A stretch of DNA of 64,000 nt from Bradymonas sediminis (GTDB taxonomy: Bacteria > Myxococcota_A > Bradymonadia > Bradymonadales > Bradymonadaceae), in the NCBI RefSeq assembly GCF_003258315.1, contig NZ_CP030032.1:4633501-4697500 (forward strand), given 5' to 3'. Below the pieces are notes generated by a model, which worked only from the letters and a program-made list of their open reading frames with translations, was not told the origin of the DNA and searched no databases. Of the stretch, positions 5,491 through 22,583 are shown in pieces; position 1 is the first letter of the stretch; each line of letters opens with the position of its first letter. The position numbers and the translations under genes are program-made.

Positions 5491-5922
5491 TTAGCGGCCT
5501 GATTTACCGCGCTTCCCGACGCGCTCCTTCATCCGCTCGCGCATCTGCTGGAACTTCTGCTTTTGCTCAGCGTCTAAGACCTCCTCGATCTCGGCGCGTG
5601 TGGCCTCCTTCGCCTTCTTGAACTCGGCGCGTGCGGCCTTCCGATCGCCCTGGTGGCGCGCTTTGATGTCCATCTTCTCGGTCTGGGCGCGCTCAAAGAT
5701 CTGGCGTACCTTTACCTTCTGGGCGTCGGTAAGCTCGAGCTTTTCGGCGAGGCGCTCGACTCTGCGGTCGAGGCGTTTTTGGAGGTGTTCGAGCTTCTCT
5801 TGTTCGGTCATTTGCTCCCAATTGGCGCGGTCTTTGTGTTTGCCTCCGCCGGCGTAAGCGCTGGTGGTGAAACCGAGGGAGAGGGCGATGAGACAGGTCA
5901 TGAGGATTCGCGATGCTTTCAT
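5491..5922 (-). CDS. Spy/CpxP-like periplasmic protein
   Basis: The protein is 143 aa. The start at 5922 is supported by GGAG 9 nt upstream and by a clean signal peptide (MKASRILMTCLIALSLGFTT, cleaved after AYA near residue 24). The mature protein is highly charged and all-helical. Two repeated segments of the form LTDAQKVKVRQIFE and LDAEQKQKFQQMRE match the LTxxQ motifs of the Spy/CpxP/CnrX metal and envelope-stress family. Such proteins act in the periplasm as ATP-independent chaperones or as brakes on sensor kinases. It is divergent from an OmpR-type regulator and sensor kinase, the arrangement of cpxP with cpxRA, so I infer it is a target and possible feedback regulator of that pair. A broken paralogue lies at 1412-1965. 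Confidence 0.85.
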   Translation of the reverse strand: MKASRILMTCLIALSLGFTTSAYAGGGKHKDRANWEQMTEQEKLEHLQKRLDRRVERLAEKLELTDAQKVKVRQIFERAQTEKMDIKARHQGDRKAARAEFKKAKEATRAEIEEVLDAEQKQKFQQMRERMKERVGKRGKSGR

Positions 5923-5970
5923 GTGTGTTGCTCCGTTCTTAAGGGGGAATGGTTCCTTAGCCTCAACACC

Positions 5971-6002
5971 AATATACGCAGTGGATCTTAAGGAAATGTG
6001 AA
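5971..6002 (-). promoter_or_regulatory. Putative OmpR-type operator and promoter for the Spy-like gene
   Basis: Reading the minus strand, TTCACAT and TTAAGAT form two half-sites 11 bp apart (6002-5981), the spacing bound by OmpR/PhoB-type dimers. A TATATT hexamer (5976-5971) follows where a -10 would fall, with the repeats covering the -35. The block is conserved in the decayed duplicate at 2023-2044, which supports function. The binding protein is inferred to be the adjacent regulator. Confidence 0.45.
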
Positions 6003-6218
6003 GCAAATTAATCGTGCGGTGGAGACCAGCAATTGGAGCCAGGTCATCTTGACCTGGGAGCAAGAGGCTTGTTTTTCCAGGCATGGAAGGTCGGGCTCCG
6101 ATGTTAAACAGGCTCACTGAACGCGGGCGGAGTGAGCTTAAGATTTGCTTAATATTTGCTGATTAATCTTTCGGGGTCTGCGCAACGCGATGGGTGTCCA
6201 TAACCAAGATAGGCCACT

Positions 6219-11415: not shown

Positions 11416-11674
11416 GATCCTGGTCTGCGCCGGACCCCTTTCTATTGTGCTCGCGGCATCACGAGCGCCTTGCACCAATTTTGCGCCAAAGTGGCGCTAA
11501 ACTTGCGCCAAAATATGGGGATTTGGGTTGTGTTTGCGCTCTTCGTTGAGTGACACGAGGGCCGGGTTCTGAGAAAATATAGTTCACACTTGGCAATATA
11601 TTAGCGTCGAAATTGTGCGAATTATGGACGTGGATCGCCACGTTTTTTTGGAGCCCAGCCACCAAGGTAAGATT
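11416..11674. other. Short intergenic region with a small GC hairpin
   Basis: Between the GGDEF gene and the Cys-rich lipoprotein, a hairpin GCGCCA-AAG-TGGCGC (11483-11497) lies in a stretch with three near copies of TTGCGCCAAA. It has no T run, so termination is uncertain. No small gene is supported. Confidence 0.35.
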
Positions 11675-13564
11675 ATGAAAAGATTAGATATTCATCAGCC
11701 CTTTTTCTCGAGCGTCAACGCAAAGTTGCTCGGCCTCGCCGCCGTTTCCCTCTTGAGCCTGTCGGCCTGTATTACCAGTCCTGTCGAGGACAGCGTCATC
11801 TGCTGCGAACTCGAGGACGGCACGATCTCATCAGAGACCTCCTCCGATTGTGAGAAATTTGGCGGGGTGGGGGTTGAAGATGAACTCTGCGAGTGCAGCG
11901 TGGATGTCTGTTGTAAGATCGACGGTGGCTTCCAGACCCTCCCGTCGAATGAGTGTCCAGACGCCCAGGTGGTCTCCGGGGAGATGTGCACCCCCGAAGA
12001 GAGAGAGCTGTGTTGTAAGCTTGATGACGGCTTCCAGACGGTCCCCGTCAGTCAATGTCCGGAGGGTCACGAGGCCTCGCCGGAGATGTGCCGCCCGGAT
12101 GAAGAAGAGCTGTGCTGCAAGCTCGACGGTGTCCTGCAGACGGTCCCGGCGAGTCAGTGTCCGGAGGGCGCCGAGGCGCCGGCGGAGATGTGCACCCCCG
12201 AAGAGAGAGAGCTGTGCTGTAAGCTTGATGACGGCTTCCAGACCGTGCCCGTGAGTCAGTGTCCGGAGGGTCACGAGGCCTCGCCGGAGATGTGCAGCCC
12301 GGATGAAGAAGAGCTGTGCTGCAAGCTCGACGGTGTCCTGCAGACGGTCCCGGCGAGTCAGTGTCCGGAGGGCGCCGAGGCGCCGCCGGAGATGTGCAGC
12401 CCGGATGACCAGGTTTGTTGCATGGACGCCGACGGCAGCGTCTCGTTCGTGCCGGGCAGCGAATGCGCGCCGCAGGCGGTGCTCCCCGACGACCGTTGCA
12501 TCGCGGCGGACACCAATGTTTGCTGCGAGAGCCCCGATGGCTACGAGACGATTCCGGCAAGTCAGTGCCCGGATGGTCTCGAGACCTCGCCGGAGATGTG
12601 CGCCGCTTATGAAGAGACCTGCTGTAGGCTCGAGGGTGGTGTTTTCCAGGTGGTCCCGGTGAGTGAATGCCCGACAGGCCAGCACGCCCCGGCCGAGATG
12701 TGTGTCCCCGACGAAGAAAAGGTCTGCTGCGAGCTCCCCGATGGCTACCAGACCGTTCCCAGCAGCGAGTGCCCGGATGGCTACGCGACCTCGCCGGAGA
12801 TGTGCCTGCCCATCGAAGACGATGTCTGCTGCGAGCTCCCGGACGGCTACCAGACGGTTCCCAGTAGCCAGTGCCCTAGCGGTTTCGACGTCCCGGCAGA
12901 TTATTGCATCGCCTATGAAGAGGTCTGCTGCGAGCTCCCCGATGGCTACCAGACCGTTCCCAGCAGCCAGTGCCCGGACGGCTACGCGACTTCGCCGGAG
13001 ATGTGCCTGCCCATCGAAGACGACGTGTGCTGCCTGGACGCCGCTGGCAACGCCACGTTTGTCCCGACCAGCCAATGCCCCTCGGCCGCGGTGGTCTCCG
13101 ACGATCGTTGTATCGACCCGCAGCCGGTTGAGTGCACGAAGTTCCGCGCGGTTGACATGAGCGCGCTTCCCTACACCACGACTGCTGGGGACACGCTTCA
13201 GTCCTTCACCTCAATCCAGGGGACCTTTCCGATCAGCACGGCGTGGTCGTCGCCGTGCTATGAGATGCCCGCAGGCGCTCAGCGTGCACACGTAGCCGTT
13301 GGCCAAGACCTCGTGCTGAACTTCACGTCGCCGGTCTCTTCGATCTTTTTGCTGCGCTACTATGCACAACCTGGTGATGAGCTGATCGTCCCCGGAGCGA
13401 CGCTCACGCCCACGTTTTGTGGGAATAGCGCCTACGACAACATTACGCGGGTCGATCTGGCGACACCGAGCACGACCGTGACGGTGCAAGACATCGACTC
13501 CGACGGCGGCTCCGGCTACTCGCTCTTTCTCGCCGAATGCATCGAGTGGGGGCAACAACCCTAA
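11675..13564 (+). CDS. Modular cysteine-rich lipoprotein
   Basis: The protein is 629 aa. The start at 11675 follows AAGG and gives a lipoprotein signal ending LSLSAC (lipid Cys near residue 36). Next come about 13 tandem modules of 33-36 residues, each with a CC pair, a central S/NxCP and a closing EMC or DxC (four cysteines per module). Modules 2-3 and 4-5 are a 204-bp duplication. A C-terminal domain of about 120 residues without the pattern follows. The paired cysteines imply a disulfide-stabilised rod on the cell surface; adhesion is a guess. A strong terminator follows 88 bp after the stop, so it is a single-gene unit. No homologous named family is recognised. Confidence 0.85.
   Translation: MKRLDIHQPFFSSVNAKLLGLAAVSLLSLSACITSPVEDSVICCELEDGTISSETSSDCEKFGGVGVEDELCECSVDVCCKIDGGFQTLPSNECPDAQVVSGEMCTPEERELCCKLDDGFQTVPVSQCPEGHEASPEMCRPDEEELCCKLDGVLQTVPASQCPEGAEAPAEMCTPEERELCCKLDDGFQTVPVSQCPEGHEASPEMCSPDEEELCCKLDGVLQTVPASQCPEGAEAPPEMCSPDDQVCCMDADGSVSFVPGSECAPQAVLPDDRCIAADTNVCCESPDGYETIPASQCPDGLETSPEMCAAYEETCCRLEGGVFQVVPVSECPTGQHAPAEMCVPDEEKVCCELPDGYQTVPSSECPDGYATSPEMCLPIEDDVCCELPDGYQTVPSSQCPSGFDVPADYCIAYEEVCCELPDGYQTVPSSQCPDGYATSPEMCLPIEDDVCCLDAAGNATFVPTSQCPSAAVVSDDRCIDPQPVECTKFRAVDMSALPYTTTAGDTLQSFTSIQGTFPISTAWSSPCYEMPAGAQRAHVAVGQDLVLNFTSPVSSIFLLRYYAQPGDELIVPGATLTPTFCGNSAYDNITRVDLATPSTTVTVQDIDSDGGSGYSLFLAECIEWGQQP
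11987..12394 (+). repeat. Tandem 204-bp duplication inside the Cys-rich gene
   Basis: Positions 11987-12190 and 12191-12394 are in-frame near-identical copies, each encoding two 34-residue Cys modules (68 aa). Differences are mostly single synonymous changes, such as TGTTGT versus TGCTGT near the module start. The high identity compared with the diverged neighbouring modules indicates a recent expansion. Confidence 0.85.
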
Positions 13565-13703: not shown

Positions 13704-14022
13704 CACCCCAAAAAGTCACCCCTGAAGCCCACCTCCGGAGGCCCGAGCCCGACTAATTCGGAACCTCGGGCTCAGCCCGGACGGCCCGAGCCCTCAAAAT
13801 TCGGCCTGCTACCCCATTTTTGAGGGCCTTGCCCACCCGATTTGAGCCGACGGTTCCGATTTTTATGGCCCCAGGCCTCGCGAAACGCGCAGGGGGCTTG
13901 TTTTTTGAGGCCGTTGGGCTCAAAAATGGGCCGAGGGTTATATTTTTTGAGGGCTTGGCCCTGGGGAGACCGAGGGTGGGCTGCAATCCGGATGGGGGGC
14001 GGCCTGCGCGATGGGGGTCGTG
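13704..14022. repeat. 318-bp dispersed direct repeat, copy A
   Basis: This stretch matches 22267-22583 with about four differences (two 1-nt indels and two substitutions), close to 99% identity. It is rich in short inverted segments such as CCCTCAAAA against TTTTTGAGGG and GGGCTCAAAAATGGGCC, and could fold into several hairpins. Open frames on both strands are conserved only because the DNA is. No transposase is present. It might be a non-autonomous element, a structured RNA or a recombination repeat. Confidence 0.9.
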
Positions 14023-15373: not shown

Positions 15374-15568
15374 ATGTCGAATTCGAAAGCCGATCGAGAC
15401 AACCGTTCGAACCAGCTCAACCCCAATAACGATGCGTATTGGAGTTCGCGGGGCCAAGATGCGCCCGGAGCGCAGCCATCGTATTCGCCGAGCCAAGACG
15501 ATCGGGATAACCGCTCGAGGCAACTCGACCCCGAGCACCCCACTTATGACAAGTCACGGGGCAAATAA
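15374..15568 (+). CDS. Small hydrophilic protein with a duplicated DNRSxQLxP motif
   Basis: The protein is 64 aa, and the start at 15374 is fixed by a near-perfect GAGGAG site 5 nt upstream. It consists of two copies of one motif: DRDNRSNQLNPNNDAYWSSR near residues 7-26 and DRDNRSRQLDPEHPTYDKSR near 43-62, joined by a Pro/Ser linker. No signal peptide or membrane segment is seen. The motif (DNRSNQLNPNN..Y..SRG) looks conserved in style, but I cannot assign a function. It lies about 160 bp upstream of the sugar/radical SAM operon on the same strand. Small proteins in this position can be precursors or regulators; there is no direct evidence for either. Confidence 0.7.
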   Translation: MSNSKADRDNRSNQLNPNNDAYWSSRGQDAPGAQPSYSPSQDDRDNRSRQLDPEHPTYDKSRGK

Positions 15569-15724: not shown

Positions 15725-16675
15725 ATGCAGCGTATTTTGATCAGTGGCTCCGAGGGCCTTGTAGCGTCGGGTCTTATCCCGGCACTTGAGGCACGAGGGG
15801 TCGAGGTATGTCGTTTTGACTTATTGGGTCGGGAAAATTCGATTGAGCAGGGCGATATTCGTGAAGCTGCAGCGGTGCGCCGCGCCATGCGGGGCTGTAG
15901 CGGCGTCATTCATCTGGCGGCGGTATCGCGGGTGGTCTGGGGGCAAAATGACCCGGACTTATGTTGGGAGACCAATGTTGAGGGAACGAAGAATGTTCTG
16001 AAAGCGGCGGCCGAAAGTGAGCCGAAGCCCTGGGTTGTCTTTGCGAGCAGCCGAGAGGTTTACGGGGAGCCGGCCGGTTGTCCGGTCCGTGAGGATGACG
16101 AATTACGTCCCCTCAATATTTACGGCCGCTCGAAACTCGCCGGGGAGCAGGCTGTGCTTGATGCGCGCGAGCACGGGCTTCGCACTGCCGTGGTCCGCTT
16201 GTCGAATGTGTATGGACGTATCGATGACCACGTTGACCGGGTGATCCCCGCGTTTGCGCGCGCGGCCGTCGAAGGTAAGGCGCTGCGCGTGGACGGACGC
16301 GACCATACCTTTGATTTCACGCACCTCGATGACACGGTTCGCGGCATTATTGCGCTCTGTGATCGGCTTGAGAATGGAGCCAAAAACCTTCCACCAATCC
16401 ACCTGCTCACCGGTCGGCCCACCACCCTGGGCGAGCTCGCCAGATTAACCGTCGACACCGCTCAGAGTGCATCAATAATCCACGAAGCACCGCCGCGTAA
16501 TTATGACGTCGCGACGTTCTGGGGTGACCCGTCAAGGGCGCATAAATGGCTCGATTGGAGGGCCGAAATCACGCTCGAAGAAGGCGTATTTCGCCTTATT
16601 CAGGACTTCGAGCGCGCGTTGAAGCACACCCCAGAGAAGCAAAAACAGTCCCCGTTGGAAAGGAGCGGCGTATGA
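15725..16675 (+). CDS. NAD-dependent sugar epimerase/dehydratase (extended SDR)
   Basis: The protein is 316 aa. The Rossmann glycine motif is GSEGLVASG (8-16). The catalytic set is Ser108/109 in FASSREVYG and YGRSK (Y133, K137), all intact. The C-terminal half carries the substrate-binding FDFTHLDD and GRPTTLGELA segments typical of UDP/dTDP-sugar epimerases and dehydratases. It should act in the cytoplasm on a nucleotide-activated sugar; which one cannot be read. An AGGGA site precedes the ATG. Its stop overlaps the next start (ATGA), so it is the first gene of a coupled operon and probably supplies the sugar used by the following glycosyltransferase. Confidence 0.9.
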   Translation: MQRILISGSEGLVASGLIPALEARGVEVCRFDLLGRENSIEQGDIREAAAVRRAMRGCSGVIHLAAVSRVVWGQNDPDLCWETNVEGTKNVLKAAAESEPKPWVVFASSREVYGEPAGCPVREDDELRPLNIYGRSKLAGEQAVLDAREHGLRTAVVRLSNVYGRIDDHVDRVIPAFARAAVEGKALRVDGRDHTFDFTHLDDTVRGIIALCDRLENGAKNLPPIHLLTGRPTTLGELARLTVDTAQSASIIHEAPPRNYDVATFWGDPSRAHKWLDWRAEITLEEGVFRLIQDFERALKHTPEKQKQSPLERSGV

Positions 16676-19020
16676 AAGTTTTGAAAGTTATCCACGGTTA
16701 TCCGATGCGCTATAACGCCGGTTCTGAGGTCTACAGTCAGATGCTCTGCCACGCGCTCGCCGAGGAGCATGAGGTGCGGGTATTTACCCGCGAAGAAGAC
16801 CCGTTTGCGATGGACTTCGCCATGCGCACCGAGCGCGATGAACTCGACGCGCGGGTGCTTAAATACCTGGTCAATGTCCCGCGAAGCAAAGACCGCTACC
16901 GCCATGTCGCTGTTGATCAGCGCTTTGCCGAGGTTCTCGATGTGTATCAACCCCACGTCGTTCACGTGGGGCATCTCAACCATCTCTCGACCTCGCTTCT
17001 AACCGAAGCTGCCGCCCGCGAGATCCCCATCGTCTATACCCTGCATGACTATTGGGTGATGTGCCCGCGCGGTCAATTTATGCAGTTTTTCGCCGAGGAC
17101 CCGACCGAGTTGTGGGCGGCATGTGACGGCCAGGAACACCAGAAATGTGCCGAGCGATGCTACGCGCGCTATTTTTCGGGGAGTCCCAATGAACGCGCAC
17201 AAGATGTGGAAATGTGGAGCGATTGGGTGGCCCGACGCATGGCGCATATGCGCGAGATGGTTGAGCATGTCGACCTCTTTATTGCGCCCTCGAAATATCT
17301 CTATAAGCGCTATCGCGACGAGTTTGGTCTCTCCGAGCGAAAGCTTGAATATTTGGACTATGGCTTCGATTTAGAGCGCCTGAAAGGACGCGTCCGTGTA
17401 CCGGATGAACCCTTTACCTTCGGATATATCGGCACGCATATCCCAGCGAAGGGGATCAATCACCTGATCGAAGCCTTCGGCGAGGTTAACGCGAGCGCAC
17501 AATTGCGCATTTGGGGGCGCCCACGCGGGCAGAATACGGCCGCACTCAAAGCACAAGCCGCGGCACTTGGCGGTGGCGCGGCCGAGCGTATCGAATGGTT
17601 ATCAGAGTATCGAAATGAGGAGATCGTCGAGCAGGTCTTCAATAAGGTCGACGCGATCGTTGTCCCTTCCGTCTGGGTCGAAAACTCGCCGCTGGTTATT
17701 CACGAGGCGATTCAGGCCGGCGTGCCCGTCATCACCGCCGATGTGGGGGGGATGGCGGAGCATATCGAACACGAGGTCAATGGTCTTTTGTTCCGCCATC
17801 GGGACCCCGCGTCGCTGGCAGCACAAATGCAGCGGCTGGCGCTTGAGCCTGCGCTAGCCGAGCAGCTCGGCGCCCACGGGTTTTTGCACTCCGAGTCGGG
17901 CGATATCCCGTCGATGAACACACACGTGCGTGACATTGAGGCTATCTACAAAAATGTCCTTGAGCTTCGCGACAAAGCACATCTTGAAAAGCTCGATGGC
18001 CCCTGGCGCATCACCTTCGATACCAACCCTGACACTTGTAATATGCGCTGCATAATGTGCGAGGAGCACTCTCAACTCAGCGACAAGCAAACGCAGCGTC
18101 GAAAAGCTGGAAAGCCGCGTCGGATTATGTCGATTGACCTCATCCGTCAGGTGCTCGAAGACTCGCGTGGCACGGCGCTGCGCGAGATCATCCCGTCGAC
18201 GATGGGTGAGCCGCTGCTCTACGAGCATTTCGACCAAATCCTCGATATGTGCGAGGAGTTTGACGTTCAACTCAACCTTACCACTAACGGGACATTCCCC
18301 AAAAAGGGCGCGCGCGCCTGGGCGGAGCGAATCGTGCCGGTGACCTCCGATGTAAAGATTTCGTGGAACGGGGCTACCAAGGAGACCCAAGAGAAGATCA
18401 TGGTGGGTTCAAATTGGGAGCGCGTGCTCGAAAACGTGCGCACCTTTATCGCCGTGCGCGACGCCCACGCCGCGGCTGGCGGCAATTTCTGCCGAGTCAC
18501 CTTCCAATTGACCTTTATCGAAGAAAATCTCCACGAACTCGCCGATATCATCAAATTAGCGGCTAGTCTCGGGGTCAATCGAGTCAAAGGCCACCACCTC
18601 TGGGTTCATTTCGACGGCATGGAGGAGCAGTCAATGCGTCGCTCTCCTGAGGCGATCCGCCGATGGAACGAGGCGGTTCTCAACGCACGAAAAGCGGCGC
18701 AAACCCACAAGCTCCCCGACGGCCAAACGATCCTACTTGAGAATATCTATCTGCTCGATGAAGAGGCCACCACGGATATCGCGCCTGGCGGAAAATGTCC
18801 GTTCCTGGGCCAAGAGGCGTGGATCAGCGCGATGGGCCGATTCAACCCCTGCTGCGCCCCCGATGAGAAGCGAAAGAGCCTGGGCAGCTTCGGCAATCTT
18901 TATGGTCGGAGCATCACCGATATCTGGAATAGTGATGACTATAACCGGCTGGTTCGCAGCTACCGCACCCGCGAGTTGTGCCTGGGGTGCAATATGCGAA
19001 AGCCCGCGGAGGAGTCATGA
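16672..19020 (+). CDS. GT4 glycosyltransferase fused to a radical SAM/SPASM enzyme
   Basis: The protein is 782 aa. Residues 1-430 are a GT-B, family-4-like glycosyltransferase with the acceptor-side glycine loop near NAGSEVYSQ and the donor E-x7-E motif ENSPLVIHE (337-345). Residues 440-780 are a radical SAM domain with the 4Fe-4S triad CNMRCIMC (C456, C460, C463). The GEP motif is in TMGEPLL (about 510-516), and a C-terminal SPASM-like region carries cysteines at about 708, 726, 727, 769 and 772. The start is set by GGAAAGGAG and the 4-bp overlap with the previous gene, and the stop overlaps the next start. The fusion implies that sugar transfer and radical modification act on the same substrate. 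The substrate (glycan, lipid-linked sugar or peptide) is unknown. Confidence 0.88.
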   Translation: MKVLKVIHGYPMRYNAGSEVYSQMLCHALAEEHEVRVFTREEDPFAMDFAMRTERDELDARVLKYLVNVPRSKDRYRHVAVDQRFAEVLDVYQPHVVHVGHLNHLSTSLLTEAAAREIPIVYTLHDYWVMCPRGQFMQFFAEDPTELWAACDGQEHQKCAERCYARYFSGSPNERAQDVEMWSDWVARRMAHMREMVEHVDLFIAPSKYLYKRYRDEFGLSERKLEYLDYGFDLERLKGRVRVPDEPFTFGYIGTHIPAKGINHLIEAFGEVNASAQLRIWGRPRGQNTAALKAQAAALGGGAAERIEWLSEYRNEEIVEQVFNKVDAIVVPSVWVENSPLVIHEAIQAGVPVITADVGGMAEHIEHEVNGLLFRHRDPASLAAQMQRLALEPALAEQLGAHGFLHSESGDIPSMNTHVRDIEAIYKNVLELRDKAHLEKLDGPWRITFDTNPDTCNMRCIMCEEHSQLSDKQTQRRKAGKPRRIMSIDLIRQVLEDSRGTALREIIPSTMGEPLLYEHFDQILDMCEEFDVQLNLTTNGTFPKKGARAWAERIVPVTSDVKISWNGATKETQEKIMVGSNWERVLENVRTFIAVRDAHAAAGGNFCRVTFQLTFIEENLHELADIIKLAASLGVNRVKGHHLWVHFDGMEEQSMRRSPEAIRRWNEAVLNARKAAQTHKLPDGQTILLENIYLLDEEATTDIAPGGKCPFLGQEAWISAMGRFNPCCAPDEKRKSLGSFGNLYGRSITDIWNSDDYNRLVRSYRTRELCLGCNMRKPAEES

Positions 19021-20690
19021 ACCTACCTGATTGGAAGAAAACAAGCGTCTCACCCGACCAATCACATCACCTTTGTTCTGGCAAACCGCTCTACGACAAG
19101 CGCTTTGATGAGGTACTCAAATACCATGCTCCTGGACTGGCTCCTGCTCGCGACGCCTCGGGAAGCTATCATATCGACCTGATGGGCCAACCGGTCTATG
19201 CCGAACGCTACCAGCGCACCTTCGGCTTCTATGACGGGCGCGCCTCGGTGGTATCCAACGGCCGCTGGTTCCATCTCGGGGAGCACGGCGAGCAGATCTA
19301 TTCGGCGCATTACGCCTGGACAGGAAACTACCAGGAGGGACGATGCACCGTGCGGTCTGAAAGTGGACTCTATAGCCATATCGATCGCCTGGGCCAGCCC
19401 GTTTACGACGCGCAATATCACTACGCCGGCGACTTCCGAGACGGCGTGGCAGTCGTGCAAAACGAGGCCGGCCATAGCACCCATATTGACCGCGACGGCG
19501 CGCTGATTCATGCGCGTTGGTTTGCGGACTTGGATGTCTTTCACAAAGGATTTGCCCGCGCTCAAGATGAGCGAGGTTGGCACCATATTAACCGCTCAGG
19601 CGACGCGCTCTACACAAGGCGCTTCGCGGAAGTTGAGCCCTTTTATAACGGCCAGGCCCGCGCCAAACGCTTCGATGGCGGGTTGGAGGTTATCGACGAG
19701 CGCGGCGAGCGCATGCTTGAGTTGCGCCCCGGCCGGCCAACGCCATTGCAGACGCTCTCCGATGATATGGTCGGGTTCTGGAAGACCCAGACCATCCAAG
19801 CTGGCGTTGAGTTGGGCGTATTCGACGCATTGCCGGCAAATACGGCGGAGGTCGCACAACGTACCGAATTGGCTGAGCGTCGTGCGATGCGATTACTTTA
19901 TGGACTCTGGGAGCTCGAACTGGTGAGGCCAGACGACGCCGAGCGCTGGTGTTTAACCGAGTGTGGTGCGCTTCTTGGCCACGAAAGCCCGAGCGCGATG
20001 GCTTATGCGTCGTCAGTTTGGGCGCGCGATCACTACCAAAAGTGGCAGCGCCTGCCCGACGCGCTCCGCGCAGAGGCAACCTCGGAGAAATCCTATTTCA
20101 AGGGGCTCTCAGGCGCGCAAGTCGCGACCTACCAACGCGCTATCTCCGGCTACGCGCGCCATGATTACGCGCACCTGCCCGAAACCATAAATTGGCGCGA
20201 ACATAAGCACGTCATCGACGCCGGTGGCGGGCAAGGTGTGCTCCTGGCACAACTCTTGACGGCTCACGCACATCTGCAAGGCACCCTACTGGAACTGCCC
20301 CAGGTGCTAGGCACCTTCGAAAGCCCAGGCGAGTTCTCTGGACGCTTGCGTGCCCTCCAAGCAAATCTCTTCGAGCCCTGGCCAAGCAAAGCAGATGCCA
20401 TCGTGCTCGCCCGAGTGCTCCACGACTGGCCAGATTCGGACGCCCTTCGGATTCTAAAGCGAGCGCGTCAATCGCTTCATCCCAACGGAAAACTCTATGT
20501 CATCGAGATGATACGCCCCGACGACAAACCGGACGGCAGTCTGCTCGACCTCAATATGCTGGTGATGACCGGCGGGCGCGAGCGCACCCACAGCGAATGG
20601 ACAAAACTCTTAACAGATGCTGGTTTTCACTTATTGGAAACACGCAACTTACCGTCTGTCAGCGATATTTTAATCGGAGCTATAAAATGA
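19017..20690 (+). CDS. WG-repeat protein fused to a class I SAM O-methyltransferase
   Basis: The protein is 557 aa. Residues about 45-235 are five WG-type beta repeats of the form Y.HID..G.PVY...Y..A..F..G.A.V. Residues about 245-557 are a methyltransferase of the dimerising O-methyltransferase class. A helical dimer domain comes first, then the SAM loop VIDAGGGQGVLL (399-410), then LARVLHDWPD, whose His matches the general base of that class. The start overlaps the previous stop (ATGA), with GGAGG just before it. The WG part may bind the substrate or a partner while the enzyme methylates it. Together with the fused enzyme before it, this points to a multi-step modification of one acceptor. 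Confidence 0.88.
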   Translation: MNLPDWKKTSVSPDQSHHLCSGKPLYDKRFDEVLKYHAPGLAPARDASGSYHIDLMGQPVYAERYQRTFGFYDGRASVVSNGRWFHLGEHGEQIYSAHYAWTGNYQEGRCTVRSESGLYSHIDRLGQPVYDAQYHYAGDFRDGVAVVQNEAGHSTHIDRDGALIHARWFADLDVFHKGFARAQDERGWHHINRSGDALYTRRFAEVEPFYNGQARAKRFDGGLEVIDERGERMLELRPGRPTPLQTLSDDMVGFWKTQTIQAGVELGVFDALPANTAEVAQRTELAERRAMRLLYGLWELELVRPDDAERWCLTECGALLGHESPSAMAYASSVWARDHYQKWQRLPDALRAEATSEKSYFKGLSGAQVATYQRAISGYARHDYAHLPETINWREHKHVIDAGGGQGVLLAQLLTAHAHLQGTLLELPQVLGTFESPGEFSGRLRALQANLFEPWPSKADAIVLARVLHDWPDSDALRILKRARQSLHPNGKLYVIEMIRPDDKPDGSLLDLNMLVMTGGRERTHSEWTKLLTDAGFHLLETRNLPSVSDILIGAIK

Positions 20691-21400
20691 TCGAATATGT
20701 GATTCCGCCAACGCTCGTGCAGAGCCTCGCTGCTATCCCGACCGACCAGCCGGTGGCCCTGCTTCTGCGGCATTCCGTGCGCGACCCCATCCCCGAGGGA
20801 GAAACCGGAAACGACCTGCCGCTTACCGATAAAGGCGTTGAGATTGCCCGCGAGTTGGGAGAAAAACTCAAAGGCCGTCTGTCGACGTTGCACACAAGTC
20901 CCGTGCGCCGCTGCGTCCAAACCGCTGAACACCTGCGAAGCGGCGCTGGCATCAATTGCGAGATAAAGCTCGATCGAATGCTCGGTGATCCGGGGGTTTT
21001 TATCGAAGATGCCGAAGTGGCCGGGCAGAATTTTCATACACGAGAATACTGGGAGCTAATCGCGTCATTGGTTCGTGGAGAGAAGTTGATCGGTATGCGT
21101 CACGGCCCAACCGCCGCGCGCCAACTCACCGAGCATATGCTGGCGCAAATAGATGGAAAGCCTGGGGTACACATCTTCGTCACCCACGATTATTTCTTGG
21201 CGACCCTCGCCGCTGTCGGTCTCGCACTTGCCAGCGACGAGAGCTTAGCCCCGAAATTTTTAGACGGCGTATTTATCTGGCAGGACGCTCAAATTCACGG
21301 GCGCTATAAGAGCAATCAGGGCGTCATCAAGTGGCCGACACAAACGCAGACCTCACCGAATAGAATCTGCGTTCTGGAGGGCCAAAATGAGGCTGGTTGA
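20687..21400 (+). CDS. Histidine phosphatase superfamily protein
   Basis: The protein is 237 aa. The phospho-accepting motif is LLRHSVRD (R28, H29), followed by the second arginine in SPVRRCVQTA. The closing catalytic His lies in FVTHDYF, near residue 166. This branch is like SixA/phosphoglycerate-mutase-type phosphatases acting on small phosphorylated compounds. It starts inside the stop of the methyltransferase (ATGA) behind TCGGAG, and its end overlaps the next gene by 14 bp. In this operon it may remove a phosphate from a sugar or other intermediate; that is inference from neighbours. The active-site residues appear complete. Confidence 0.85.
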   Translation: MIEYVIPPTLVQSLAAIPTDQPVALLLRHSVRDPIPEGETGNDLPLTDKGVEIARELGEKLKGRLSTLHTSPVRRCVQTAEHLRSGAGINCEIKLDRMLGDPGVFIEDAEVAGQNFHTREYWELIASLVRGEKLIGMRHGPTAARQLTEHMLAQIDGKPGVHIFVTHDYFLATLAAVGLALASDESLAPKFLDGVFIWQDAQIHGRYKSNQGVIKWPTQTQTSPNRICVLEGQNEAG

Positions 21401-22040
21401 AAAAGACATTCTATCCTTTGCGTGCGTTTGGTTTGACCGCCTCTTTGCAGGAAAGTTTAGGGGACGCGTATATTTGGCTGGCGGCGCGTTTAAATCAGTC
21501 TTGCACGGACGACCGCCCAATGACCTGGACCTGTTCGCCGCTACCGATCCCGGTCGCCAGGCGCTGCTTGATATCCTGCAGCAAAATGGTGCGATTATTC
21601 TGCAGGATAACAAACCCTATCAAACGATTTTGAGTTGGCATGGTCAGCGCGTCGAACTTGCATATAGCACCCAATATCAAACGCTCTCGGAGCGGCTGGC
21701 GCAATTTGATCTGGACCTCTCCGCAGTCGGCGTGGAATACGATGATGGTCGTCTTCATCCCGAGATCCACCCTGTCGCGCGTGAATCGCTCGTATCGGGC
21801 GAAGTCCTGCTCATTAAGCCCCTGAAAAACTGGAAATACGTGTTGGCGACGCTCGAGCGCATGCGCCGTTACGCCCGCGAACTCGATCTGGTACTACCCA
21901 AGGCCGAAATAAACTATATTTGGAGCATTTTTGAAGACCAACCCCTTGAGATGCAGCGAGGCATGATCGAACGCTTTCGCCTTGTTGGCCGCGACACCCA
22001 GGCTATTCAAAAGGAGGCAGAATGCCGAATCCACCCCTAA
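21387..22040 (+). CDS. Nucleotidyltransferase-like protein (Pol-beta/poly(A) polymerase head fold)
   Basis: The protein is 217 aa with a GGAGG ribosome-binding site inside the end of the upstream gene. Residues 27-50 have the nucleotidyltransferase signature LAGGAFKSVLHG followed by NDLDLF, that is, GG with two Asp in the DxD position. A third acidic residue is likely near VELAY. The remainder is helical. The fold is shared with CCA-adding enzymes and small-molecule nucleotidyltransferases. In this cluster, transfer of a nucleotide to a sugar or metabolite is more plausible than RNA work, but nothing in the sequence proves it. It overlaps the next start by 19 bp. Confidence 0.7.
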   Translation: MRLVEKDILSFACVWFDRLFAGKFRGRVYLAGGAFKSVLHGRPPNDLDLFAATDPGRQALLDILQQNGAIILQDNKPYQTILSWHGQRVELAYSTQYQTLSERLAQFDLDLSAVGVEYDDGRLHPEIHPVARESLVSGEVLLIKPLKNWKYVLATLERMRRYARELDLVLPKAEINYIWSIFEDQPLEMQRGMIERFRLVGRDTQAIQKEAECRIHP

Positions 22041-22257
22041 TCGCGGGACTCTATCCATACGTGCGCGAGGGCGTTCATCACCCGCCAACGTTTACGCTAC
22101 GCGAGATCCCACAATGCCTAGCCATCAACCCCTGGTACCGCGACGAACTCCTCGTACTCGCCGGAGACGCGGACTCCGCCCGCGCGCACAGCTCAATTGG
22201 GCGGATGAGTTGAGGCATGCGTGTGATACCAATAAGCGCTTTGATATCCTTGATTGA
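22022..22257 (+). pseudogene. Last operon gene, small and probably frameshifted or truncated
   Basis: A canonical AAAGGAGG site precedes the ATG at 22022, inside the end of the nucleotidyltransferase gene. The frame gives 63 aa (to 22213) rich in Pro and aromatic residues (IAGLYPYVREGVHHPP). Near 22185 the coding character shifts frame: the other frame continues with a plausible helix, LNWADELRHACDTNKRFDIL, to a stop at 22255-22257, while the annotated frame ends with low-complexity residues. A 1-nt indel is the simplest explanation. The 318-bp repeat copy B begins 10 bp later and may have truncated it. No family is recognised. Confidence 0.55.
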
Positions 22258-22266
22258 CGTCTAACC

Positions 22267-22583
22267 CACCCCAAAAATCACCCCTGAAGCCCACCTCCGG
22301 AGGCCCGAGCCCGACTAATTCGGAACCTCGGGCTCAGCCCGGACGGCCCGAGCCCTCAAAATTCGGCCTGCTACCCCATTTTTGAGGGCCTTGCCCACCC
22401 GATTTGAGCCGACGGTTCCGATTTTTATGGCCCCAGGCCTCGCGAAACGCGCAGGGGGCTTGTTTTTTGAGGCCGTTGGGCTCAAAAATGGGCCGAGGGT
22501 TATATTTTTTGAGGGCTTGGCCCAGGGGAGACCGAGGGTGGGTTGCAATCCGGATGGGGGGCGGCCTGCGCGATGGGGTCGTG
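22267..22583. repeat. 318-bp dispersed direct repeat, copy B
   Basis: This is the second copy of the element at 13704-14022, in the same orientation and about 99% identical. It begins 10 bp after the end of the sugar/radical SAM operon. The same hairpin-forming segments are present. Each copy lies immediately upstream of a plus-strand gene, at about 85 bp (copy A) and 69 bp (copy B). Confidence 0.9.

Follow-up and report, generated by a model that had tools for sequence, protein, structure and literature searches.

Mycofactocin biosynthesis joins a peptide and a radical S-adenosylmethionine (SAM) enzyme with glycosylation and with 2-O-methylglucose (PMC7491314). Hexosylation of the phosphorylated peptide in pseudomycoidin depends on a predicted nucleotidyltransferase (PMC9266682). 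A third related arrangement is found in the peptide-processing modules beside ternary conflict systems (FxSxx and related), in which a small peptide is accompanied by a SPASM radical SAM enzyme (PMC7159879). Here, we compare with these systems an operon of Bradymonas sediminis (5.05-Mb genome, one contig), located in a stretch of 64,000 nucleotides of contig NZ_CP030032.1 (positions 4,633,501 to 4,697,500) that we refer to as “the window”. With moderate confidence, we read the operon as a cassette resembling those for ribosomally synthesized and post-translationally modified peptides (RiPPs), in which a WG-repeat domain would serve as a shared recognition module. Its parts, in window coordinates, are as follows.

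15374–15568, forward strand: peptide gene, 64 aa, predicted substrate; Shine-Dalgarno site, ATG preceded by TGAGGAGCAAA; homologues hold the corresponding position 5′ of A or B
15725–16675, forward strand: A, NAD-dependent sugar epimerase/dehydratase of the short-chain dehydrogenase/reductase (SDR) type (Pfam Epimerase, 2.7e-44)
16672–19020, forward strand: B, fusion of a GT4 glycosyltransferase (N-terminal half) and a radical SAM enzyme with SPASM domain (C-terminal half) (Pfam)
19017–19751, forward strand: N-terminal part of C, WG-repeat domain of ~245 aa, beta hairpin repeats (Pfam WG_beta_rep)
19752–20690, forward strand: C-terminal part of C, COMT/DnrK-like O-methyltransferase (Pfam Methyltransf_2, 1.3e-29)
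20687–21400, forward strand: D, histidine phosphatase, branch 1 (Pfam His_Phos_1)
21387–22040, forward strand: E, Pol-beta-type nucleotidyltransferase, head and neck of CCA class II without the body (AlphaFold fold match)

Comparison with described systems

In its logic, mycofactocin is the nearest system, differing in its enzymes and its peptide. Like the operon, the mycofactocin cluster (MftA-F) brings together a short precursor gene, a radical SAM enzyme and a dedicated glycosyltransferase. However, the glycosyltransferase of the operon is of the GT4 type and fused to the radical SAM enzyme, whereas MftF is a GT2 enzyme; the operon also has a WG domain with swappable enzymes, a phosphatase and a CCA-type nucleotidyltransferase. 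The operon has no identified counterpart of the MftB chaperone or the MftE peptidase, the peptide motif is unrelated, and the peptide lacks the C-terminal Val-Tyr core of the MftA type. In pseudomycoidin (PsmK/PsmN), PsmN sets a precedent for peptide glycosylation that involves a nucleotidyltransferase-like gene, and kinases occur in the present family as well, fused to WG. Unlike pseudomycoidin, the operon has no lasso cyclase, has a different precursor and includes a radical SAM enzyme; protein B has no counterpart in pseudomycoidin. The FxSxx-type modules pair their enzyme with a metallopeptidase and a peptide bearing a C-terminal motif, and have no WG parts, whereas the operon has a glycosyltransferase fusion and a WG-methyltransferase but no metallopeptidase. 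Lastly, the best NCBIfam match of the radical SAM half of B is a tungsten cofactor oxidoreductase maturase (TIGR04317), but the score (68.7 bits) is far under the cut-off of 380, and there is no tungsten enzyme in the operon. No description of a peptide, a GT4-radical SAM protein and a WG domain in combination was found in the open-access papers searched, with most subscription journals outside the search.

A peptide gene at the head of the operon

The operon is confirmed as a genuine unit by its overlapping genes and by the conservation of active-site motifs. A to E overlap in series (A/B, B/C and C/D by 4 bp, D/E by 14 bp) and a last reading frame opens at 22022, 19 bp inside E, as described in a previous, sequence-only reading of this DNA, which had listed six frames with overlaps of 4–19 bp. 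To place the operon among its relatives, we fetched loci for the best 80 of the 415 relatives that the scan reported for B, all of them the closest ones; they come from proteobacteria, planctomycetes, verrucomicrobia, cyanobacteria and other groups. Because B is 52–70% identical across these 80 loci and the order A-B-C-D(-E) recurs at many of them, the gene set is more than a chance assembly. Homologous clusters, for which the earlier reading suggested a search, co-occur across phyla.

The sequence-only reading began the operon at 15725, with A, and suggested a search for a small ORF conserved in all clusters. Such an ORF exists, but the operon starts further upstream, with the 64-aa peptide gene, and the ORF is found beside only some of the clusters. 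This conserved ORF, just upstream of the coordinates first given, shifts the balance toward a peptide product. The peptide of the window carries its motif twice, as DRDNRSNQLNPNNDAYWSSRG and DRDNRSRQLDPEHPTYDKSRG, and ends in SRGK; the family consensus is DNRANQLNPxxxAYxxSRG. A first profile, built on the first eight peptides plus five plasmid-borne relatives, finds the peptide beside the cassette in 24 of 80 new loci, and a second, iterated profile in 25 of 80, on the same strand and just upstream. In 29 tabulated loci, the peptides are 50–101 aa long, and the gene lies mostly 60–90 bp before A or close 5′ of B. A Shine-Dalgarno-like GGAG, GAGG or AGGA precedes the start codon in 27 of the 29, and third codon positions take 410 of the 870 differences between homologues (the pairs are not independent); for these two reasons, we consider the reading frames to be real genes.

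Linkage between the peptide and B is also seen within the phylum of the host. Clear peptide matches (E up to 1e-8) occur in 14 of 284 Myxococcota genomes, and eight of the 14 also encode B, where ~1 would be expected; in all eight, the peptide gene is just upstream of A or B. As a background, the motif is present in 3 of 348 other Pseudomonadota genomes (~1%; E up to 1e-5). The idea that the motif is widespread in Proteobacteria was tested and rejected: it is present there but rare. The peptide accompanies 27 of 53 loci of the O-methyltransferase type, a higher share than among loci of other types (5 of 31; P 0.002, a few contigs being counted twice). The peptide has no match in the PDB by phmmer, and its motif none in Pfam, NCBIfam or the literature searched.

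Peptide relatives were also noted away from the cassette. On plasmids of Thioclava, Cereibacter, Pseudomonas and Vibrio (L037-L041, around 5900-6120 of each locus), solitary proteins of 43–48 aa with DNRSNQLNPNNDAYWxSRGYDERPDDW are encoded; they are partly unannotated and belong to no Pfam family. At two further loci (L075:5694-9315 and L077:149-7160), relatives of the peptide lie directly 5′ of MoxR-vWA gene pairs of the bpMoxR type, on the same strand, and at L022 a MoxR-vWA pair adjoins the cassette itself.

Protein B and the WG domain

B fits the definitions of both a GT4 glycosyltransferase and a SPASM radical SAM enzyme. In 15 homologues, the residues of the GT4 ExxxxxxxE motif (E337 and E345), the CxxxCxxC motif (C456/C460/C463) and the SPASM cysteines (C709, C727/C728, C770 and C773; Pfam SPASM, 7.1e-10) are invariant. 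Its likely start is the ATG at 16672, rather than the position 16546 given mechanically as the ORF start. A, which precedes it, has relatives among PDB sequences that include UDP-glucose 4-epimerases and TDP-glucose-4,6-dehydratase. At L018, L021 and L024, the epimerase and the GT4-radical SAM protein share a single reading frame. In the genome search, two B homologues (L009 in G082 and L036 in G279) each contain one in-frame TGA, the match in G279 covering the GT4 half only.

The WG domain is a near-obligate partner of B. B was found in 21 of the 284 Myxococcota genomes, and in 20 of these together with WG; conversely, all 20 genomes with this WG domain (E up to 1e-50) encode B, and the next-best WG matches in the sample fall to 1e-17. 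In nearly all fetched loci, WG stands directly 3′ of B, apart from a few contigs that stop before C and one locus (L127) with other genes between the two. What follows WG varies. Most often it is an O-methyltransferase (54 extracted proteins), but it can also be a protein kinase (L097, L152, L019), a class II aldolase (L111), a P-loop kinase-like domain (L122 and L129, the latter a weak Pfam assignment) or a histidine phosphatase (L035), and in some loci WG stands alone with nothing fused. The fusion of WG to an O-methyltransferase, described in the sequence-only reading, is thus present here, but the invariant core is B plus a specific WG domain, and the methyltransferase is merely the commonest of several attached enzymes. 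It is this pattern of a constant domain with a variable enzyme that leads us to predict that WG is a shared substrate-recognition module. A second cluster type (L018, L019, L021, L024, L033 and L034) was also observed, in which a WG-aldolase and a carbamoyltransferase are accompanied by two further SPASM radical SAM proteins.

C occupies 19017–20690 as a whole. Its WG part is modelled by AlphaFold with a predicted local distance difference test (pLDDT) score mostly >90, and a PDB fold search with full-length C returned the methyltransferase part only (Z 33–37, root-mean-square deviation 1.8–3.2 over ~315 residues). That part has Pfam Methyltransf_2 and Dimerisation domains, and keeps the HDW motif with an invariant H469, in agreement with a COMT-type enzyme.

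Proteins D and E

In D, R28, H29, R32 and H167 are invariant across 22 homologues, and in many relatives D and E share one ORF. E (217 aa) has no Pfam match at threshold, the PolyA_pol head reaching E=0.043. Its AlphaFold model (pLDDT 95) superimposes on class II CCA-adding enzymes over 196 residues (Z 13.3, root-mean-square deviation 3.5). The GG-x12-DxD active site is intact, with G32, G33, D46 and D48 invariant, as is D108. E has no body and tail tRNA-binding domains, and aligns to approximately residues 1–255 of the much longer CCA-adding enzymes. Judging from this model, E is a nucleotidyltransferase that retains only the head and neck domains of the class II CCA-adding type. The enzyme classes assigned from sequence alone were correct, Pfam supporting those of A to D and the fold match that of E. 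Relatives of E were sought in viral contigs, and none were found.

Distribution and inheritance

FastTree trees were built for B and for WG, with peptide presence as a label shuffled 500 times. Peptide presence requires 17 changes on the B tree and 15 on the WG tree, compared with a shuffle mean of ~23.5 and 0–1 of 500 shuffles as low; starred branches force at least 13 changes on the B tree and at least 6 on the WG tree. Because the label is clustered and yet needs 17 and 15 changes, linkage to the peptide recurs in distant lineages. Peptide-linked loci are found in deep branches (Verrucomicrobia L146 and Electryonea L149, the latter divergent) as well as within mixed groups, and gain and loss of the peptide are indistinguishable on these trees. 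On the B tree, myxobacteria fall into one group with betaproteobacteria, a halomonad and a desulfovibrio, which is consistent with horizontal transfer. The peptide is present at the locus of Azospira oryzae. Genomes of Endobugula, Hormoscilla and Rickettsiales (L130, L141, L145, L148, L157-L159) have the cassette with no recognisable peptide beside it.

Possible mechanism and alternative explanations

In the cassette as we read it, several points are conjectural: that the peptide is the substrate and WG its binder, which sugar is used, in what order the steps run and what biological role they serve. First, the short hydrophilic DNRANQLNPxxxAYxxSRG peptide would be made. Second, A would provide or adjust a nucleoside diphosphate (NDP)-sugar, which the GT4 half of B would transfer. 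Third, the radical SAM/SPASM half of B may carry out a radical step on the glycosylated product, whether on peptide or on sugar. Fourth, the WG domain of C would deliver an interchangeable tailoring enzyme (an O-methyltransferase in this operon) to the substrate. The target of D and E may be an intermediate or group that carries phosphate or a nucleotide. A fuller version, which we offer tentatively, is that the family constitutes a new class of ribosomal glycopeptide: B would modify the DNRANQLNP-motif peptide, and WG would be a universal docking module into which tailoring enzymes were plugged repeatedly during horizontal spread across phyla.

As in RiPP systems, a short ribosomal peptide is encoded beside modifying enzymes, its role as precursor being a prediction. 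Several observations weigh against a peptide-modification cassette. Approximately two thirds of B-WG loci lack a recognisable peptide next to B, and whole-genome searches of 20 genomes with such loci gave no peptide match at E up to 0.05 in 17; the three with a match are G298 (the divergent peptide of L149 itself), G300 and G289 (weak). There are also copies of the motif without B, some in solitary plasmid proteins and others next to unrelated genes. The probability calculated for the co-occurrence of peptide and B in Myxococcota (hypergeometric P ~5e-7) is approximate, since the test assumes independent genomes while the genomes are related. No protease or exporter was found among A to E with Pfam and NCBIfam, although these could be encoded elsewhere, and a general Pfam scan of the operon proteins revealed no PqqD-like RiPP recognition element (RRE). 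RREs are not present in every RiPP class. A second, different conserved small ORF was sought in the peptide-less loci, with only related-strain and antisense matches, and by-eye reading of their upstream ORFs yielded a single divergent family member, in L149. Either the peptide-less loci act on other substrates, or their peptide has diverged past detection, or the peptide is accessory.

The last of these options leads to the alternative that best survives, which we nevertheless consider unlikely: a small-molecule or glycan pathway, in which B-WG makes a modified sugar product, be it a natural product, a lipid-linked sugar or a glycan of the surface, for decoration by the enzymes tethered to WG, and the peptide, present only in some lineages, has an accessory or regulatory role. 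The many peptide-less loci fit this alternative, as do the resemblance of D, E and the kinase, aldolase and carbamoyltransferase partners to sugar or natural-product tailoring enzymes and the match of the C methyltransferase to small-molecule O-methyltransferases. However, an optional accessory would not be expected to keep its first position, nor to be enriched across distant lineages (31% of loci, compared with ~1% of other Pseudomonadota genomes).

It is improbable that the operon is a conflict or defence module, with the peptide family and GT4-type enzymes belonging to counter-invader systems and the modified peptide acting as effector or signal. B does score on Pfam GT4-conflict (PF20706; 50.9 bits, 1.6e-13, cut-off 26), but generic GT4 models outscore it by far (89–91 bits). 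Modules of peptide and radical SAM enzyme have been described beside such systems (PMC7159879), and two B-independent peptide genes lie directly 5′ of MoxR-vWA genes (L075, L077); however, bpMoxR matches occur in 98 of 284 genomes of the phylum, so that two adjacencies may be due to chance. PADLOC gave weak, domain-level matches to viperin and mad2 only, and STAND, MoxR-vWA or caspase partners were not found among the operon proteins by Pfam or PADLOC. An ordinary exopolysaccharide or lipopolysaccharide (LPS) modification locus assembled by chance is more improbable still and already disfavoured: epimerases, GT4 enzymes, O-methyltransferases and phosphatases are common in such loci, but the same B-WG pair, with B 52–70% identical, recurs across many phyla, and the operon proteins include no identified polymerase, flippase or polyprenyl-phosphate transferase.

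The 3′ end of the operon and its flanks

Three further features bound the operon.

22022–22257, forward strand: F remnant, a decayed gene that has undergone a large internal deletion and a change of frame (tblastn of an intact homologue against the window)
13707–14006, forward strand: left copy of a 300-bp direct repeat (repeat search)
22269–22568, forward strand: right copy of the same repeat (repeat search)

The small sixth gene, taken in the sequence-only reading as a functional part of the operon, was rejected as a functional gene or precursor: it is the remnant of a gene of ~226 aa. An intact homologue of 226 aa is encoded at L079:337-1017, after an E fragment. Its residues 4–59 align at window positions 22034–22201, and its C-terminal residues 210–218 align in a different frame at 22189–22215 (tblastn); since only these two parts align, in two frames, most of the F gene has been lost from the window. 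F has no Pfam match; a DWDTV sequence in the intact homologue hints at a glycosyltransferase.

The two repeat copies are 99% identical, are the only near-full-length copies in the genome, and bound a segment of 8.56 kb that contains the operon, the right copy beginning 12 bp 3′ of the F remnant. They may mark the route by which the operon arrived, or permit its loss. Upstream of the left copy, at 11615–13564, is a 649-aa protein resembling a lipoprotein, with numerous cysteine-rich repeats that are nearly identical (CCKLDDGFQTVPVSQCPEGHEASPEMC).

Implications

The proposed earlier assignment, a glycan or glycopeptide modification operon with no named pathway, gains support from sequence, to the extent that sequence can give it, through the enzyme classes, the co-occurrence of clusters across phyla and the lack of a description in the open-access papers searched. 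The peptide gene at its head is easily missed, as some copies are unannotated in public records and have no family match. If the peptide-modification reading is correct, the operon would define a class of ribosomal peptides for which one protein carries out both glycosylation and radical chemistry, and the WG-repeat domain would gain a role in docking tailoring enzymes. In one genome collection, the 415 reported relatives would then represent a broad, unmined family of natural products or glycopeptides, with symbiont, myxobacterial and cyanobacterial genomes among the relatives that were fetched.

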